DNA of 64,000 bases, taken from assembly GCF_000633535.1 (NCBI RefSeq), contig NZ_AYMR01000011.1:124001-188000 (forward strand), written 5' to 3'. A model generated the notes under the pieces. The model was given only the letters and a program-made list of their open reading frames with translations. It had not been told where the DNA came from and ran no database searches. The DNA is from Leifsonia aquatica H1aii. Its GTDB lineage: Bacteria; Actinomycetota; Actinomycetes; Actinomycetales; Microbacteriaceae. Each line of letters begins with the position of its first letter. Position 1 is the stretch's first letter. A program made the translations under genes and the position numbers. Below, in pieces: positions 55,761-64,000 of this stretch.

Positions 55761-56642
55761 TCATCCGAATCGGCCGTTGACGTAGTCGAAGGTGCGCGGA
55801 TCCAACGGCTGGGAGAACATGGCGTCGGTGTCGCCGTGCTCGACGATCGCGCCGGGCTTGCCGCCCGCGGCCAGAAAGAACGCGCAACTGCTGGAGACGC
55901 GCTGGGCCTGCTGCATGTTGTGCGTGACGATGACGATGGTGACCTCGGAGACCAGCTCGAGCATGGTCTCCTCGATGACCCGGGTCGAGGTCGGGTCGAG
56001 CGCCGAGCACGGCTCGTCCATGAGCAGGACGCGGGGCTTGACCGCCAGCGAACGGGCGATGCAGAGTCGCTGCTGCTGGCCGCCGGAGAGTCCGCCGCCG
56101 GGCGAGCGCAGCCGGTCCTTGACCTCTTTCCAGAGCCCCGCCTTGGTCAGGCACGACTCGACCAGCTCGTCCTTCTCGTCGCGGCCCACCCGCGTGCCGG
56201 TGAGCTTGAGGCCGGCCACCACGTTGTCGTAGATCGACATGGCGGGGAACGGGTTCGGCTTCTGGAACACCATCCCGATGGACTTGCGGGCGTCGACGAG
56301 GCGCTTGCGCGGGTCGTAGATGTCGTCGCCGTCGAGCAGCACCTCCCCCGCGAGGGACGCGCTGGGGATGAGCTCGTGCATGCGGTTCAGGATGCGCAGG
56401 AACGTCGACTTGCCACAACCGGACGGCCCGATGAGCGCGGTGATCTCGCCGGCCTCCATCGTCAGCGAGACGCGATCGAGCACCTGATGGTCGCCGAACC
56501 ACGCAGTGATGCCCCGGGCCTCGAGGGCGGCGAGGTCCCCGGGCGCCGGCGCGAACAGGGGAACCTGCACGGTCGGCTCGGGAAGGGCGTCGGCCGCCGG
56601 GAGCAGTGCCGTGCGGTCGAGGGGGGCGAAGAGGTCGGACAT
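55761..56642 (-). CDS. pstB: Phosphate ABC transporter ATP-binding protein PstB
   Basis: 293 residues. Walker [30 protein letters not shown] (typical PstB), signature [15 protein letters not shown], Walker [14 protein letters not shown] and H loop [11 protein letters not shown]. An extra N-terminal stretch of about 40 residues precedes the ATPase. It should power PstCA, which are not in the window and may lie beyond the right edge. Follows the sortase-like gene by 10 bp. Confidence 0.95.
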
Positions 56643-56652
56643 CGGTTCTCTC

Positions 56653-57636
56653 TCAGAGCAGATTGGGAAGGAGACGGGAGACCTGGTCCGCGGCGATGAC
56701 GCCCGCCGCGAGCAGGATGGGAGCGAAGACGATCCACGTGCGCTGAGCGCCGAACCGGTCGAGGGCGCGTGTGCCGACGATGAGCGCGAGCAGCAGCGCC
56801 TGCAGGGCGAAAACCAGCAGCCAGGCGGTGCTCGGGTCGCTGGCGAGCTCGCGATCGGCGAGCGGCAGCGTGTTCGCCGTCGTCTGGCGCAGGCCGCGAT
56901 CCTTCACCGGGGTGACCAGCTCCGCATCCACCCGCACGACGCCGGCCGGCACGTACGGGAGGCCCCGGGCGGTCTCGAGGGTCATCCGGCCTTGCGTGCC
57001 GCGGAGCGCGGGCAGGTCGGGGTCGCCGGCGTAGCGGACACCGATCACCCGGTAGACGCTCTTTCCCTGGCCGGTGACCGCATTGATCGTCGCACCGGGG
57101 GCAAGCTCCTGGATGCGCGAGAACGGGCCGCCGTACGCCGCTGCCCGGCCCAGGATGACGGTGGTGCCCGGCTGGCCGGGAAGCACCGTGTCGCGCCGAT
57201 GGCCCGGGCCATCGGCGGTCACACCCGACGATGATCCCTCGAGCACGTACTCGGACACGCCGATGGACGGGATGGAGATCTTCGCGACCGGGGCGCCGTC
57301 GGCGACGAGCACGTCGTCGGTGGTGCCCTCGCTGACCGGGGCGGTCGCCGCGGCCAGCTGCTCGCGGAACGCGTTTCCGGCGACCTGCTGACCGATCAGG
57401 TGGTGCACGTGACTGACCACGAGGATGTTCGCCGTGAACGCGATCAGCAGCGTCGCTCCCAACGCCACCATCCCGCGCACCATCCGCTGCCGCGGGGTCT
57501 GCACGACCGGCTCGCGCGGCGGCGCCGGCGGACGGCGCGGCGGCTTGGGCGGACGCGGCGGCTTCGGGGTGCGCGACGTCCGCTGCGGTGCCTCCTGCGA
57601 CGGGGATGCGTCGAGCGGGTGGGCGGTCTGGCTCAT
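56653..57636 (-). CDS. Sortase-fold membrane protein with lost catalytic residues
   Basis: 327 residues. Pro/Lys/Arg-rich cytoplasmic leader, TM helix (about 53-75), class E sortase-like domain (115-245): [52 protein letters not shown], then two C-terminal TM helices (272-290, 300-318). Where sortases have GHR the chain reads [11 protein letters not shown] (Arg164), where they have TLxTC it reads MTLETARG (Ala223), and the late catalytic Arg is missing. Probably a non-catalytic scaffold. Start overlaps the preceding stop (ATGA). Confidence 0.78.
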
Positions 57637-58352
57637 GTCCGCACCGCCGCAACGGCGGCCGGGACCGCCGCCGCCGCGCGGACCGCGACGAGGACGGCGA
57701 GAGCGGTCGCGGCGATCACGGCGCCGACGCTCCCGAGCCACGGGAAGGCGAAGACGGTGGTCTCACGCAGCGCGGGCTTCGTCGCGATGCCGTCGATGGT
57801 CGACGGCGGCGTGAAGGTCGCGTGGCCGGTGACGACCGTCCACTGCCCCACGCCCGTGAGCGTGCGGCTGTAGGTGACGGTCTCGCCGGGCCGCAGGTTC
57901 TTGACCGCGACCTCGCCGGACTCGTCGAGCAGGTTGCCGAACGGGCCGGTCAGCCAGACCCGGACGGTCGACGACCACGTCGATGCGGAGCCGTTGTGGA
58001 CCGCGAACGACAGCACGACCGTGCCCTCACCCGGGTTGAGCGACGGCACGAACTTGGCGTTCAGGCCGCTGACGTTGAACGGGCCGTTGTCGACCGCGAC
58101 CGCGGGCGCCGGCGTCGCTCCGGGACCGGCGACCTCGCTCGGCGGGGTGTCGGTCGGTGCCGTCGAACCGGAGTAGCCGGAACCGCCGGTCCCGGAACCG
58201 CCCGTCGAGGTGTCGCCGGAGGCCGGGATGTCGATCGAGATGCCGATGCCTCCGTCGTCCGCCACGGCGGCGCCTCCGCCGGCCAGCAGCATGCCGAGGC
58301 CGAGCGCGGCGGCGGCGGCGAGGACGCGAGCGGTGCGGGCAGCGCGTCTCAC
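57633..58352 (-). CDS. Exported Ig-like protein with C-terminal TM anchor
   Basis: 239 residues, GTG start overlapping the preceding stop. Signal peptide (ARVLAAAAALGLGMLLAGGG), a Ser/Thr/Gly/Pro linker, then one Ig-like domain (about 90-195: FVPSLNPGEGTVVLSFAVHN, VKNLRPGETVTYSRTLTGVG) and a TM helix with a basic end. Resembles the C-terminal half of DUF916-type proteins. Sits between the DUF916 and sortase-like genes with overlaps at both ends. Confidence 0.72.
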   Translation of the reverse strand: MRRAARTARVLAAAAALGLGMLLAGGGAAVADDGGIGISIDIPASGDTSTGGSGTGGSGYSGSTAPTDTPPSEVAGPGATPAPAVAVDNGPFNVSGLNAKFVPSLNPGEGTVVLSFAVHNGSASTWSSTVRVWLTGPFGNLLDESGEVAVKNLRPGETVTYSRTLTGVGQWTVVTGHATFTPPSTIDGIATKPALRETTVFAFPWLGSVGAVIAATALAVLVAVRAAAAVPAAVAAVRT

Positions 58353-59461
58353 GATCGGGCATCCTCATCGGACGCGGTGGGTCCGTTGGAGGTCGCGGGT
58401 GAGGCCGAGGCGACGCCCACCGGCTCAGCAGCCTGCTCCTCGCGCGCCTTCCGCCGGGCCTCCTCCTCCGTGTAGGCGATCCACGCCTCGGCGCGCTTGC
58501 CGTCGCTGCGGCGGCGCCACCGGCGGAAGAGGAAGAATCCGACCACGAGGACGGCGAGCACCACGATCCACCAGGGCACCGCAGCGATCACGGTGTCCCG
58601 CGAGACGAGGGCGAGCGGGCCCGGGTTGAGGGCGTCCTTCTCGACCGTCGGCTGCAGCTGGACGTACGGGTTGAGGTAGCCCACCTGCGCGGTGCCCGGC
58701 ACGACGACCGTGAGCGTCCGGGTGCTCCCGGGAAGCAGCTCCGGCAACTCCTGGCGCACGGCCGTGCCGGCGGGGATGCCGAAGAGCGCCTTGGCGCCGA
58801 CGAGCATGGTGGCGCCCAGGGCGACGTTGCCGCTGTTGCGCACAGTGAAGGTGACGGCGGTGGAGCCGGCGAACGGGTTCCACTCGGCGCGGTAGTCGGC
58901 CGAGACGCTCGCGATCGTCAGCGCCGGCTGGAGGTCGCCGGGCACGCGGACGTACAGGCGGGTGGCGACGCGGCGGTCGACCAGGATCTGTCCGTCGCCC
59001 TTCTGGCTGGAGACCACGATGCCACCGGCATGATCGCCGGGCCCAGCGTCCGCCGGCACCGTGAGCGTGAACGGTACGGTGCGCTGCTGACCCGGGTCGA
59101 GCGGGAAGGTCTCGGTCGGCTGCGAGCCGTCGAAGAGCACCCAGGTGCCGACCGCGGTCGGCTTCTTCGCGGTGTCGAGCAGCGCGAACTCGCCCTCGTC
59201 GGTGTTGAACGCGTCGGTGGCGAACAGGGTCACGTTCTGCGGCGTCGTCCCGGTGTTGCGGACGACGTACTCGTCCTCGAGATGCTGGCCCGGCTGGAGC
59301 TGGTAGCTGAGCCGCGTGCGGTCGTCGCCGGGGCCGGCGGAGATGCTGTCGACGTCGTCGGCGAACGCCGGTCCGACGCCGAGGAGCGCGGCCGCGAGGC
59401 CGGCGAGGAGGGCGGCGACGGCGCGAACGGGCCGCAGCGGCAGGGTCTGTGTGGAGGGCAC
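58349..59461 (-). CDS. DUF916-type (WxL-interacting) membrane protein
   Basis: 370 residues from the GTG at 59461 (a TTG at 59512 would add 17). Signal peptide; first beta domain with LQPGQHLEDEYVVRNTGTTP, ETFPLDPGQQRTVPFTLTVP and DHAGGIVVSSQ, as in DUF916; second Ig-like domain (about 200-300); TM helix (WWIVVLAVLVVGFFLFRRW); cytoplasmic tail of about 55 residues rich in Glu/Ala/Lys. In Firmicutes these proteins bind WxL proteins and peptidoglycan. Here it follows a WxL-type gene. Confidence 0.78.
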   Translation of the reverse strand: MPSTQTLPLRPVRAVAALLAGLAAALLGVGPAFADDVDSISAGPGDDRTRLSYQLQPGQHLEDEYVVRNTGTTPQNVTLFATDAFNTDEGEFALLDTAKKPTAVGTWVLFDGSQPTETFPLDPGQQRTVPFTLTVPADAGPGDHAGGIVVSSQKGDGQILVDRRVATRLYVRVPGDLQPALTIASVSADYRAEWNPFAGSTAVTFTVRNSGNVALGATMLVGAKALFGIPAGTAVRQELPELLPGSTRTLTVVVPGTAQVGYLNPYVQLQPTVEKDALNPGPLALVSRDTVIAAVPWWIVVLAVLVVGFFLFRRWRRRSDGKRAEAWIAYTEEEARRKAREEQAAEPVGVASASPATSNGPTASDEDARS

Positions 59462-59621
59462 GCTACATTGATCCGAATCCGGGTGGCCGGGGTGTGTCAC
59501 CGGCGTGAACAAGGTGAAAACGGGACTGTCGAGGGGACGGCCGCCGGCGGGGCGACGCCACCAGCCGAGGGGAGACGGGCAGGAGGGGCCGCCTCGCGAC
59601 GGCCCCTCCCGATTCCCACGA

Positions 59622-60665
59622 CTACTTCGAGACGAGCGTCAGCGTCATCGTCGAGGCGTAGGTACCCGCCGGGGTGCCGGACGGAGCGACGAGCTTCAGA
59701 TCTGCGCTGAGGCTGGTCGCACCGGTTCCGGTGCCTGCGGGGGCGGACGCGAAACCGCTGAAGGCGGTCGCGTCTCCGGCGACGTGCTCGGTCCCCGCGA
59801 CCACGCCTCCCGGGTTCGTGGCGATCGTCGGCTTCACGCCGAGCTGCTTCGCGTCGATGGTCTTCGACGCGTCGGCGCCGTTCACGAAGTTCGTCGTGCT
59901 GGCGATGAGGTTCCAGCCCGGCTTGCTGACGACGCGCTGGTCGTCGACCGTGAACGCCGGCAGGGTGCCGGTCGAGGTGGAGAGACCGTTGACCAGGCTG
60001 GCCGCCCCGAGGGTCGCCTTGGCGCCCGCGGGGACGACGAGGCTGAGGTTGCCGTCGACGCCCTGGGCGATGGTGGTCGCCTCGAGCGCGATGTCGCCGG
60101 TCTTGGTGCCCGTGTCGGGGTTGGTCGGGTTGGACGCCCCGGTCTCGAACGTGTAGGCACCCGTGCCCGCAGTCACGTGGGCGGTGAAGAACCACACACC
60201 GCTCGCCGCCAGGTTGATGCCGTTGTCCTTGGTGCACGCGACGCCGACCGAGTAGTCGCCGCCGTTCGCCTTGATGGGGGCGGTGGTTCCGCGCTCCTGG
60301 AGCTGGGGCGTGATGTCCGGTCCGGCCACCTTGCCGCCGATGAGGGGGATCGGAGCCCAGGCCCGGTAGTTGGCCGGGGTGCGCTCGTTGCCCAGGTCGG
60401 CCCAGAACGTGGCGGCCGCCGTGGCGTCGGCCGAGCAGGTGAACGGCGCGTACGGGTCGGTCCCGTTCATCGACAGGCTGATGTCGTCGGCCCACTGGAT
60501 GGTCGCGGTCTTGGCGACGAAGCCGCCGTCGCCGTCATTGCTGAACAGGTGGACGGGGGCGTCGGACGGCGCTGCCGCCGCATTGGCCGCACCCGCGGCG
60601 CCGACGACGAGGCCGGCGGCGGTGACGAGCGTCGCGGTGGCCGCGGCGATCTTGGTGATCTTCAT
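59622..60665 (-). CDS. WxL-type secreted surface protein
   Basis: 347 residues. Sec signal peptide ending AANAAAA. Beta-rich mature chain with two Cys (FTCSAD, VACTKDNG). The C-terminal part has the WxL arrangement: LPAFTVDDQRVVSKPGWNLI (W251-N-L253), STTNF, and at the very end SGTPAGTYASTMTLTLVSK, the usual place of the second motif. No TM, lipobox or LPXTG. Likely held non-covalently at the cell surface by the DUF916 partner. Confidence 0.7.
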   Translation of the reverse strand: MKITKIAAATATLVTAAGLVVGAAGAANAAAAPSDAPVHLFSNDGDGGFVAKTATIQWADDISLSMNGTDPYAPFTCSADATAAATFWADLGNERTPANYRAWAPIPLIGGKVAGPDITPQLQERGTTAPIKANGGDYSVGVACTKDNGINLAASGVWFFTAHVTAGTGAYTFETGASNPTNPDTGTKTGDIALEATTIAQGVDGNLSLVVPAGAKATLGAASLVNGLSTSTGTLPAFTVDDQRVVSKPGWNLIASTTNFVNGADASKTIDAKQLGVKPTIATNPGGVVAGTEHVAGDATAFSGFASAPAGTGTGATSLSADLKLVAPSGTPAGTYASTMTLTLVSK

Positions 60666-60695
60666 TGTCTTCTCTCTCGCGTTCGGGTCGGAGGA

Positions 60696-61793
60696 TCAGG
60701 AGGGGAAGTTGGCCCGCAGGACCGTGGTGTTGGTGGGGGCGAGGAAGCCGAACTTCGACTTCACGGCTCCGGACGTACCCGCAAGGGTGCCGAAGTTCGT
60801 CAGGCTCTTGCCCTTGGTCGGGTCGAGCAGAGCGGCGAGGTTCGGGTCGTACGTCGCGCTCGAGTTGTCCAGACGCGCGAACTCGGCGACCAGGTACGTG
60901 TCGCGGCCCCAGGTGGAGTCGTTGTAGTAGGCCGCGTTCGGGACGAGGGCGTTGCCCGAGCCGGTGAACGGAGCCGTGGTGCCGAGGGCGCTGCCCAGGG
61001 TGGAGGAGCCGGTGCGGTTCTGCGCGGCGCCGTTCTTCTGCGCGACCCAGCTGGCCACCGAGAACGGGATGATCTGGCCCGGCTGGCTGAGCACGGTGCC
61101 GTCGTTCTCGGCGAGGGTGCTGTCGTTGACGCACGAACCGATCGAGCTGACGCCGATCGCCGACAGGAAGAACTTGCGGGTGCCGGACGCGGCCTGCGGA
61201 AGCACGGGCTTGATCGCGACGCCGTTGATCGTGGTGAGCGAGCAGTTGTAGATCTGGGTGAGCTGAGCGGTGCTGAGCTGCTCGAGACCCGCGCCGGTCC
61301 CCGGTGCGATGGCGTACGAGACGGCGTCGCGACCGAACGGCACGTACGCGAGCGGGCCGCTGGCGTTCTGCGCCGAGCCGGGACCCGAGGACGAGCGGGC
61401 GATGTCGACCTGGCTGGGGATGAGGGCCGGCGGGGTGGTGTTGCCCGAGACGGCGAAGGGGGTCTTGCCGTCGATGGACTTGGCGAGCGCCTTCACGCCG
61501 TCGCCGGAACCGGCCGGGCGTGCGAAGTAGGGGCCGAAGGGCTTGGTCTGGATGGCGGCCGACCCGAAGGCGTCGTACGAGGCGACGTTTCCGCTGGCCG
61601 AGCTGGCGCGCACGTTGACGCCGGTCACGGTGGTGCCGTTGACGAGCGCGTTGGCGACATCCTGGAGGGTGTCCGAGCCGACCAGCACGTAGCTGTTCGA
61701 CACGGGGTCGGCGTTCGCCGGCGTGGCGAGCACGAGACCGGCGACGGCGGTGCCGACGACAGCGCAGACGGCCGCAGCCTTCTTGATCTTCAC
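60696..61793 (-). CDS. PstS-like phosphate-binding protein without lipobox
   Basis: 365 residues; GTG with AAAGGA upstream. Sec signal peptide (AVVGTAVAGLVLATPANA) cleaved after ANA, no lipobox Cys. PBP-like fold: YVLVGSDTLQDVANALVNG, IDIARSSSGPGS-type phosphate-binding loop (VDIARSSSGPGS), FGRDAVSYAIAPG and SGTRKFFLSAIG. A monoderm binding protein normally needs a lipid anchor, so this one is either released or held by the WxL/DUF916 proteins. Confidence 0.8.
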   Translation of the reverse strand: MKIKKAAAVCAVVGTAVAGLVLATPANADPVSNSYVLVGSDTLQDVANALVNGTTVTGVNVRASSASGNVASYDAFGSAAIQTKPFGPYFARPAGSGDGVKALAKSIDGKTPFAVSGNTTPPALIPSQVDIARSSSGPGSAQNASGPLAYVPFGRDAVSYAIAPGTGAGLEQLSTAQLTQIYNCSLTTINGVAIKPVLPQAASGTRKFFLSAIGVSSIGSCVNDSTLAENDGTVLSQPGQIIPFSVASWVAQKNGAAQNRTGSSTLGSALGTTAPFTGSGNALVPNAAYYNDSTWGRDTYLVAEFARLDNSSATYDPNLAALLDPTKGKSLTNFGTLAGTSGAVKSKFGFLAPTNTTVLRANFPS

Positions 61794-61870
61794 TCTGGTT
61801 CCTTTCGGGTTGGGCGCGGACCGGTCGGAACGCGCTCGTCGGGCGGTTGCGCGCCCGAGTTCTGGTGCCG

Positions 61871-64000
61871 TCACGGGAACCGCCGGAGGCGGGCGATGAC
61901 GGGGACGGCGCCGGCCGCGGCGAGGCCGCCGAGCAGTCCGCCGGGGAGGACCGCGGCGAGAGCGCCGGTGTCCGGGTCTTTCGCGGTCTTAGCGCCGCTG
62001 AGGCTGCCTGCGGCGTCGCCGAGGGCCTGCGGGGTGGACGGAGCCGATACGGGCTCGGCGGTCACTCCGGAGGATCCGTCGCCGCCGAAGCCCCCCGTGG
62101 TGCCGTTCCCTGCGGACGAGCCGTTGCCCCCGCCGTCGTCCGGAGAGTCCAGCGACGCTCCGGACTGGATCGCCGCCGCCGCCGCGATGGCCTGCGCCTT
62201 CCAGGCCGCGGGGATGGGCGCGTAGCCCGGCGGCAGCTGGCCCGCCTCGACGCCCGGGGTCTGGCCGGTCGTCGCCGCGTACCGGATGAACGCCGCGTAG
62301 TCGGCACGCGTGGCGGCATCCCCGCGGGCCGGGTTGGTCGCGGCGTAGACGGGCATCGCGAGCGGGTACGCCGCGGCGGCCGACTTCGCGACGGAGCCCG
62401 CCGGATCGTACTCGACGACCTGGGACTGCCCGGCGACCGGAGTCATCGCGGTCGCCGCAGCGGTGAGGCTCTGCGTCGTCGGCGTCACGAACTGGCCCGC
62501 GGCGTTGCGGAGGGAGGCGGTGACGACCTGGTACTTCGCGGCGGAGCTCGTGTCCGTCAGGCCGAGGACCTTCTGATAGCCGGGCAGGCTGCGCACGCTC
62601 TTGCCGTACTTGGGCGGCGTCGCCTGCGGATCCCACGCGCCCAGCACTTGCCCGTCGCCGCGCAGCGTGAGGTACGCCGACTGGTCGAGATCGTTGGTGT
62701 ACGGCCGCCACGTCACGAGGTTGATCTCGGCGGCGCCGTTCACGCCCGGCTGGATCACCGGGTCGGCCTTCGGGAAGTCGTCCCGCGGCAGCTCCAGGGC
62801 CTCACCGGTCGGGTTGCGCTTCGCGTCGGTCGAGGAGTTCGGGTTGACGCTCATCCCCCAGGGGTCGGCCGCCCCGGCGAGGAACGCCTTCGCGTCGGGG
62901 TCGGCGAGCACGTAGCGCCAGAGCTGATAGGCGGCGTCCGAACGTCCCTGCGGGACCAGTAGATCGGCCACGGAGGGCGCGACGATCGCCTGGAACTTCC
63001 AGTCGGGGATGTCGGAGTTCACGTCGAGGAACTCCGGGTCGAGCAGCAGGTTTCGGGGATTCGCTCCGAGGTGCTTCTTGTCGGCGTAGGTCGGCAGAGC
63101 GTCGAGGTACGACGACGTGAGCAGCTTGGCCAGAAGACGCGGGGTGAGCTTGAGGGAGTCGAACGTGAGCCCGGCCTTGTCGGTCTGCTCGGCCGGCGTC
63201 CCGTCGCCCGCCGAGGGCGCACGGTCGATCGCGAACGAGATCGCCAGGCCGCCGACGGCGACCGGAGCGTAGCGGAGCTCGTCCTGTTCGCCGCCGAGCG
63301 CGCGGGAGGTCAGGGCGAGCGGCGCGGAGTCCGCGTTGTTGGCGGCCGCGGCGGCGTCGGACTCGGCACTGTTGCTCATCGTGTAGATCGCGCCGCCTTG
63401 GGAGTTGCACAGTACGGGCTGCCAGGACGAGACGGCCCCGGCGACGAGCTCGCTCCCGCGGAGTTGACGCTCGGCCGCACCCATGTTGCAGGAGATCCCG
63501 AGCGGCTTGAACGTCAACTTGAAGGCGATGTTGTGCTTCCAGGCGTCCCAGCGCAGACCCGACTGCGTGATGTGCGACTCGCCCGAGTCGCCCGTGCCGC
63601 GCGGGATGATCACGAGCCAGCAGGTCTGCGGGGCGGTCGTCGAGCCGCTCTTCACCGGCGTCCCGCAACCGAGGCCGTTGGCCTGGAGCGCCGTCTGCAC
63701 CTCGAAGCGCACCGAGCCCTTGCCGTTCGACGCGGAGCCGGCCCAGGGGACCTCGTTGGACTGTCCGGGGTTGAAGAACTCGTTGACGTTGACGTTGATG
63801 CCGTTCTGCTTCCCGTTCTCGATCGACGTGACCACGGTGCCGTCGACACTCGTGAACGGGATGGAGGTGTAGCCCGGCGCGAACGGGCCCCGGCGCGGGA
63901 TCGAGTACTTCTCGTCCTGCGTCGCGACCGTGTCGTCGGTGACGAAGCCGTCGCGCTGGGCGCCCGGGCTGTTGAAGGCGCCGTACTGACAGGTGGTGCG
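61871..64000 (-). CDS. Large anchored PstS-like surface protein (5' end beyond window)
   Basis: 709 residues visible, open at the right edge. Extended beta regions with several Cys, then a PBP-like part: VAVGGLAISFAIDRAPSAGD, LTPRLLAKLLTSSYLDALP, DPEFLDVNSDIPDW, LLVPQGRSDAAYQLWRYVLA. A Gly/Ser/Asn linker and a C-terminal TM helix (LAAVLPGGLLGGLAAAGAVP) with a basic end follow. Resembles PstS-like proteins carrying long N-terminal additions. Next gene follows after 77 bp. Confidence 0.7.
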   Translation of the reverse strand, partial: RTTCQYGAFNSPGAQRDGFVTDDTVATQDEKYSIPRRGPFAPGYTSIPFTSVDGTVVTSIENGKQNGINVNVNEFFNPGQSNEVPWAGSASNGKGSVRFEVQTALQANGLGCGTPVKSGSTTAPQTCWLVIIPRGTGDSGESHITQSGLRWDAWKHNIAFKLTFKPLGISCNMGAAERQLRGSELVAGAVSSWQPVLCNSQGGAIYTMSNSAESDAAAAANNADSAPLALTSRALGGEQDELRYAPVAVGGLAISFAIDRAPSAGDGTPAEQTDKAGLTFDSLKLTPRLLAKLLTSSYLDALPTYADKKHLGANPRNLLLDPEFLDVNSDIPDWKFQAIVAPSVADLLVPQGRSDAAYQLWRYVLADPDAKAFLAGAADPWGMSVNPNSSTDAKRNPTGEALELPRDDFPKADPVIQPGVNGAAEINLVTWRPYTNDLDQSAYLTLRGDGQVLGAWDPQATPPKYGKSVRSLPGYQKVLGLTDTSSAAKYQVVTASLRNAAGQFVTPTTQSLTAAATAMTPVAGQSQVVEYDPAGSVAKSAAAAYPLAMPVYAATNPARGDAATRADYAAFIRYAATTGQTPGVEAGQLPPGYAPIPAAWKAQAIAAAAAIQSGASLDSPDDGGGNGSSAGNGTTGGFGGDGSSGVTAEPVSAPSTPQALGDAAGSLSGAKTAKDPDTGALAAVLPGGLLGGLAAAGAVPVIARLRRFP

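Follow-up and report, generated by a model that had tools for sequence, protein, structure and literature searches.

A Pst operon with additional surface proteins

The stretch of 64,000 nucleotides from Leifsonia aquatica H1aii analyzed in this study (C11:124001-188000 of a genome of 4.58 Mb in 76 contigs, in the following termed the window) contains between its positions 55761 and 64000 seven genes on the minus strand, in which the initial annotation had recognized, from the sequence alone, the ATPase of a Pst phosphate importer combined with PstS-like, WxL-type, DUF916-type, immunoglobulin (Ig)-like and sortase-fold proteins. All seven genes were recovered in this region. To the right of the window, in a flank designated locus L001, where the permeases of the importer had been suspected, pstC and pstA were found together with a further gene encoding a PstS protein of 548 residues (PstS548). 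Since these three genes are located directly upstream of the gene of an 899-residue protein at the window edge, the operon comprises at least ten genes. In order of transcription these are:

L001:13593-14609, minus strand: pstC, with pstA a permease pair of the TIGR02138/TIGR00974 type, equivalog level
L001:12266-13579, minus strand: pstA, equivalog level
L001:10623-12269, minus strand: pstS, 548 residues (PstS548), TIGR00975 E 2.8e-65
61871-64000, cut by the window edge (complete gene 61871-64570, L001:7872-10571), minus strand: 899-residue PstS-fold protein with an extra N-domain and a C-terminal membrane helix
60696-61874, minus strand: 392-residue, probably secreted PstS-type binding protein, TIGR02136 E 0.012, profile match to Sll0540 (9l8j_A) E 4.1e-6
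59622-60665, minus strand: 347-residue two-domain protein with a WxL-type domain at its end (W251-N-L253)
58349-59512, minus strand: DUF916 (WxLIP PGBD) protein with an Ig-like second domain and a C-terminal membrane helix, PF06030
57633-58352, minus strand: 239-residue membrane-anchored Ig-like protein, assigned by hhalign and hydropathy
56653-57741, minus strand: 362-residue membrane protein with a sortase fold lacking the catalytic His and Cys, PF04203
55761-56642, minus strand: pstB, importer ATPase, TIGR00972

The intergenic distances along this order are 13, -4, 51, -4, 30, 109, -4, -109 and 10 bp, the last six of which, ranging from -109 to 109 bp, separate the seven genes of the window; all refer to the longest frames, whose true starts may be further in. 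Hydropathy places a C-terminal membrane helix in PstS548, where it is preceded by a long linker, in the 899-residue protein, and in the DUF916 (residues 308-326) and Ig-like (residues 206-224) proteins, whereas the sortase-fold protein contains a helix at its N-terminus and two more at its C-terminus. In the 392-residue and WxL-type proteins, a signal-like helix is the only one. PstS548 and the 392-residue protein would consequently be membrane-held and secreted binders of the PstS type, respectively.

The relationship to Pst transporters is reflected in the comparison with curated families. PstC reaches the equivalog level of NCBIfam with 249.8 bits (cut-off 196.45) and PstA with 217.2 bits (cut-off 193.45), as does PstS548 (220.5 over 205 bits for TIGR00975). 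For PstB, TIGR00972 (E 2.8e-99) is the best of the families listed, with 331.5 bits just below the cut-off of 343.2. For the ligand site we relied on the residues T10, F11, S38, D56, R135, D137, S139, G140 and T141 of E. coli PstS, which, with their roles, we take to define phosphate binding. In the PstS of the operon and its relatives, aligned to a solved PstS, T10, R135, D137, S139 and G140 are kept in all 102 rows, which include two fusions, and Ser or Thr is found at the positions of S38 and T141. Relatives of the 392-residue protein share the motifs Q..SGT (90 of 91) and GSDT (89 of 91). Of the two PstS-like proteins originally proposed in the window, the 899-residue protein has retained the PstS fold but lost the phosphate loop, whose pattern R-x-D-x-S-G is found in just one of 93 relatives, which rules it out as an ordinary phosphate binder.

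WxL-type, DUF916, Ig-like and sortase-fold proteins

The DUF916 assignment was confirmed in an HMM search, where PF06030 scores 34.0 bits over a cut-off of 27.3. A scan of this one protein at E-values up to 1 provided no match to DUF3324 as second domain; instead, the region corresponding to alignment columns 191-336 is Ig-like and akin to the 239-residue protein (hhalign E 5.4e-25), which, in line with the first description, is a second anchored Ig-like protein. W251-N-L253 is found in the 347-residue protein and its Trp is invariant in the 18 aligned orthologues (alignment A2), five of which show weak matches to PF13731 (best E 9.8e-4), whereas the window protein itself has no match in Pfam and the C-terminal motif lacks the Trp in the aligned rows, leaving a divergent form with one Trp motif instead of two. 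The WxL HMM was built without five WxL rows. Elsewhere in the same genome, a second pair of WxL-type and DUF916 genes is found without Pst genes of the type described here (L061, G000:C7:77000-95000).

With the WxL-WxLIP clusters of Lactobacillales and Bacillales (PMC10599100) the operon shares the combination of a DUF916 protein, which carries a C-terminal membrane helix, and an adjacent protein with a WxL-type domain at its end. It differs in its actinobacterial origin, its single Trp motif, the lacking match to DUF3324 and the location of the module within the operon of an ABC importer. The main text of that article contains no word beginning with Actinobacter, Actinomycet or phosphate.

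The sortase fold is supported by PF04203 (45.6 bits over a cut-off of 26.6) and by profile matches to solved sortases. The position of the catalytic His is occupied by Arg in 96 of 96 rows and that of the catalytic Cys by Ala, Ser or Thr in all 95 rows with a residue at this site, and by Cys in none. The absence of both residues in every aligned relative rules out an active sortase, and the protein is, as judged from its sequence, a pseudoenzyme. Class E sortases (NF033747) share the fold and constitute the best-matching subfamily, far below its cut-off, but they differ from the protein described here in their catalytic His and Cys. The matches listed for inactive or pseudo-sortases in the open-licence literature concern lactococcal pili.

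Conservation, fusion proteins and upstream region

The distribution of this gene cassette was investigated in loci that were found either with a profile of the 899-residue protein in named genomes (the best 80 of 333 relatives) or with DUF916 (23 loci). Conservation counts are therefore conditional on the presence of these two proteins. Of the 103 loci, 93 are distinct, and the ten duplicates were dropped from the counts of loci, upstream motifs, motifs in the 392- and 899-residue proteins and neighbourhoods but kept in the residue counts of PstS and sortase rows. All ten families are present in 71 of 77 distinct loci where both pstC and pstB are in view (59 of 65 in named genomes and 12 of 12 in the others). 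The best 80 of the 333 relatives belong to Leifsonia, Microbacterium, Cryobacterium, Agromyces, Herbiconiux, Subtercola and other genera, and to Propionibacteriaceae, Micrococcales genomes and metagenome-assembled genomes, with the closest found in L. aquatica (86%). The cassette of the plant endophyte Microbacterium testaceum StLB037 is contained in L106. Within Microbacteriaceae, 65 of 199 genomes contain a match to the DUF916 protein, with at least 44% identity in 24, own genome included. The gene order recurs in this family: the DUF916 orthologue is surrounded by Pst genes in 23 of 23 other loci, in the same order except at contig ends and for moved or doubled WxL genes, which argues against a chance neighbourhood, and no Pst genes were found beside paralogous DUF916 genes in the seven loci fetched. 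Extra, moved or split WxL-type genes are contained in the cassettes of L047, L049-L053, L115, L131 and L136.

The WxL-type and DUF916 proteins appear to occur jointly. In 85 distinct loci, the C-terminal WxL domain and DUF916 are both present in 80, both absent in five and never found alone. Loci picked by DUF916 are unable to show its loss; in the 73 loci selected otherwise the counts are 68 with both and five with neither. In three of these five the display protein ends in LASTG, resembling the tail of a sortase signal. These cassettes, lacking WxL domain and DUF916, are L099, L100 and L149, from Cryobacterium.

PstS and WxL domains are also found in fusion proteins. In locus L048, a single chain of 569 residues encoded directly after pstB contains a PstS followed by a WxL domain, and seven further loci contain such a fusion at the same position. 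Among the 76 distinct loci in which the sequence continues for at least 1.5 kb after pstB, fusions thus number eight. PstS-WxL fusions account for 24 of the 120 relatives listed, out of 2570 hits to this chain, and stem, where named, from Salinibacterium, Microbacterium and Herbiconiux. In a tree of 75 PstS domains, which included 16 of the 24 fused proteins, 7 of the 8 loci with a fusion, 49 PstS of the cassette and 3 canonical ones, the fusion label changes at least three times on well-supported branches, reflecting either gains or losses.

The region upstream of pstC (300 bp before and 60 bp of the gene) carries a motif resembling a PHO box. Its commonest octamer is CGTTCACC (36 of 85 regions), and GTTCACC is found in 49 of 84 regions compared to 168 of 1660 segments drawn at random from these loci. 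GTTCACC is described as core of the PHO box of S. coelicolor, whose unit consists of 11-nucleotide direct repeats, in the excerpted text of one article (PMC4415409), and such repeats before Streptomyces pstS in that of another (PMC7866108). Two TTCA[CT]C motifs at a distance of 22 bp occur in 8 of 84 regions and in 2 of 1660 random segments. The alignment of 56 GTTCACC sites revealed two weaker elements, CG.CgcC at a distance of 11 bp ahead of the core and CTTCA at 22 bp, a context that was not found around the 763 GTTCACC sites of all loci on both strands (pstC sites included).

Further upstream, where more than 2.5 kb are visible in 64 of 84 loci, genes on the same strand are related to those at the following position of L001:

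L001:14710-17974, same strand: PASTA kinase, SLT-type transglycosylase and 207-residue protein

Relatives of the kinase are found in 62, of the 207-residue protein, which has no match in Pfam, in 52 and of the transglycosylase in 22 of 84 loci; PASTA repeats were scanned in the kinase of L001 only. An imelysin-type (Peptidase_M75) protein still further upstream, at L001:18307-19479, is found in four of 93 loci, all from Leifsonia.

Proposed function and alternative explanations

Collectively, these properties are best explained by a second, Pho-controlled Pst importer that forms one genetic unit with a module for wall display and that would receive its substrate by a relay, a reading to which, as a whole, we assign a probability of about 0.6. 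Its parts differ in strength. That the genes constitute a unit with a Pho link and a wall-display function is very probable, as suggested by gene order, the PHO-box-like motif, the PstS-WxL fusions and the joint absence of WxL domain and DUF916; the presence of all ten families in most loci, PstC, PstA and PstS at equivalog level and the PASTA kinase relatives upstream count in favour of the reading as a whole. The observations of the initial annotation are confirmed, and the connection it drew between Pst importer and WxL/DUF916 is supported. Neither of the outcomes that it named as refuting was observed: DUF916 exceeds the Pfam cut-off, a weak kinship to WxL can be seen, and it is Pst genes that form the conserved context. 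Its interpretation, a displayed complex handing phosphate to the permeases, is partly supported. We infer phosphate as ligand, its transport and a complex located in the wall, and a hand-over of phosphate to PstCA by a relay appears conceivable at slightly less than even odds. In such a relay, PstC, PstA and PstB would act as pump. A strand contributed by DUF916 would complete the WxL domain, in the manner predicted for WxLIP and WxL of enterococci, and would thereby fix the display protein in the wall above the pump. Wall-held binders would catch phosphate and pass it to the membrane-tethered PstS548 and from there to PstCA, while the pseudo-sortase and the 899-residue pseudo-PstS may serve as scaffolds. 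The complete picture of a wall-spanning relay with WxL/DUF916-displayed binders, both scaffolds and a dedicated PstCAB under control of PhoP is likewise given slightly less than even odds.

Several observations weigh against this view. The WxL domain is divergent, with its one-Trp form and weak matches to PF13731, and no more than 8 of 84 regions contain the spaced PHO repeat. The DUF916 orthologue was not detected in the three other sampled genomes of the genus (G055, G125 and G178), and the distribution is therefore patchy. The cassette also coexists with a canonical pstSCAB. In many genomes with the cassette, the best PstC maps outside of it, and a pstS-pstC-pstA-pstB set was found elsewhere in all ten genomes fetched, own genome included, with 37-39% identity between both copies of PstC and 56-60% between those of PstB, which rules out the cassette as sole Pst of its genome (10 of 24 cassette genomes examined). 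Compared to PstSCAB (TIGR02138, TIGR00974, TIGR00975, TIGR00972), the cassette shares PstC, PstA, PstS, PstB and the PHO-box-like motif upstream but differs by its order C-A-S-...-B with six more genes in between and by three PstS-type proteins, one of them without phosphate loop. A last difference concerns the site itself, since all 102 rows of cassette PstS contain Trp in place of Phe11 and Glu (Glu97 in PstS548) in place of Asp56 of the E. coli protein, and its ligand may thus not be phosphate.

This substitution underlies the alternative that the unit is organized as described but imports another ligand, such as pyrophosphate, phosphite or a small phosphate ester, leaving orthophosphate to the canonical system. 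It would account for the presence of two Pst systems in one genome, the canonical one of which has a PstS with Asp at the position of Asp56 in ten of ten genomes; the fused second PstS of L107, L118, L134 and L139 keep Asp as well. However, the remaining site residues are conserved, PstS548 reaches the equivalog level of TIGR00975 and Glu would still supply a carboxylate. The PHO-box-like motif is indicative of phosphorus without specifying the ligand. We regard this explanation as unlikely.

It appears more improbable that the complex is mainly a sensor or adhesion device, which would report phosphate or attach the cell to surfaces bearing phosphate, would signal to the wall via the PASTA kinase encoded nearby and would contribute little to transport. 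The presence of a pseudo-PstS and a pseudo-sortase, the frequency of kinase and transglycosylase genes upstream and the description of WxL proteins mostly as adhesion proteins (PMC10599100) would be compatible with this role, but the operon has kept a complete PstCAB with the ATPase and both permeases, and some loci, L099 and L100 among them, either lack the kinase or carry it in another place. A chance assembly of neighbours without joint function, for which nothing but the patchy distribution speaks, is ruled out by the conservation of the Pst context (23 of 23 family loci) and of all ten families (71 of 77), by the fusion proteins and by the joint absence of WxL domain and DUF916.

The second importer with its display module does not appear to have been described, at least among the matches listed in the open-licence literature, where we found nothing on WxL with Microbacteriaceae or on Leifsonia, WxL and Pst together and where pstS appears in the context of WxL as a typing gene. 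Nor is it described by the matches listed for combinations of sortase, pstB, DUF916 and related subjects. In the Isd system of Staphylococcus, binders displayed on the wall by covalent sortase anchoring relay haem to an ABC importer in the membrane. As proposed, the cassette would resemble this arrangement of wall-displayed binders feeding an importer, although both have no families in common and the display of the WxL type differs from the covalent anchoring of Isd proteins. If correct, our reading would thus define a phosphate counterpart to the wall-anchored haem relays of Gram-positive bacteria that is built from parts for non-covalent display, and would show that sortase-fold proteins can form a conserved clade working without catalysis. 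It would also assign a nutritional role to WxL and DUF916 proteins, so far mainly known as adhesion parts of low-GC bacteria, which would be testable in actinobacteria of soil and plants.

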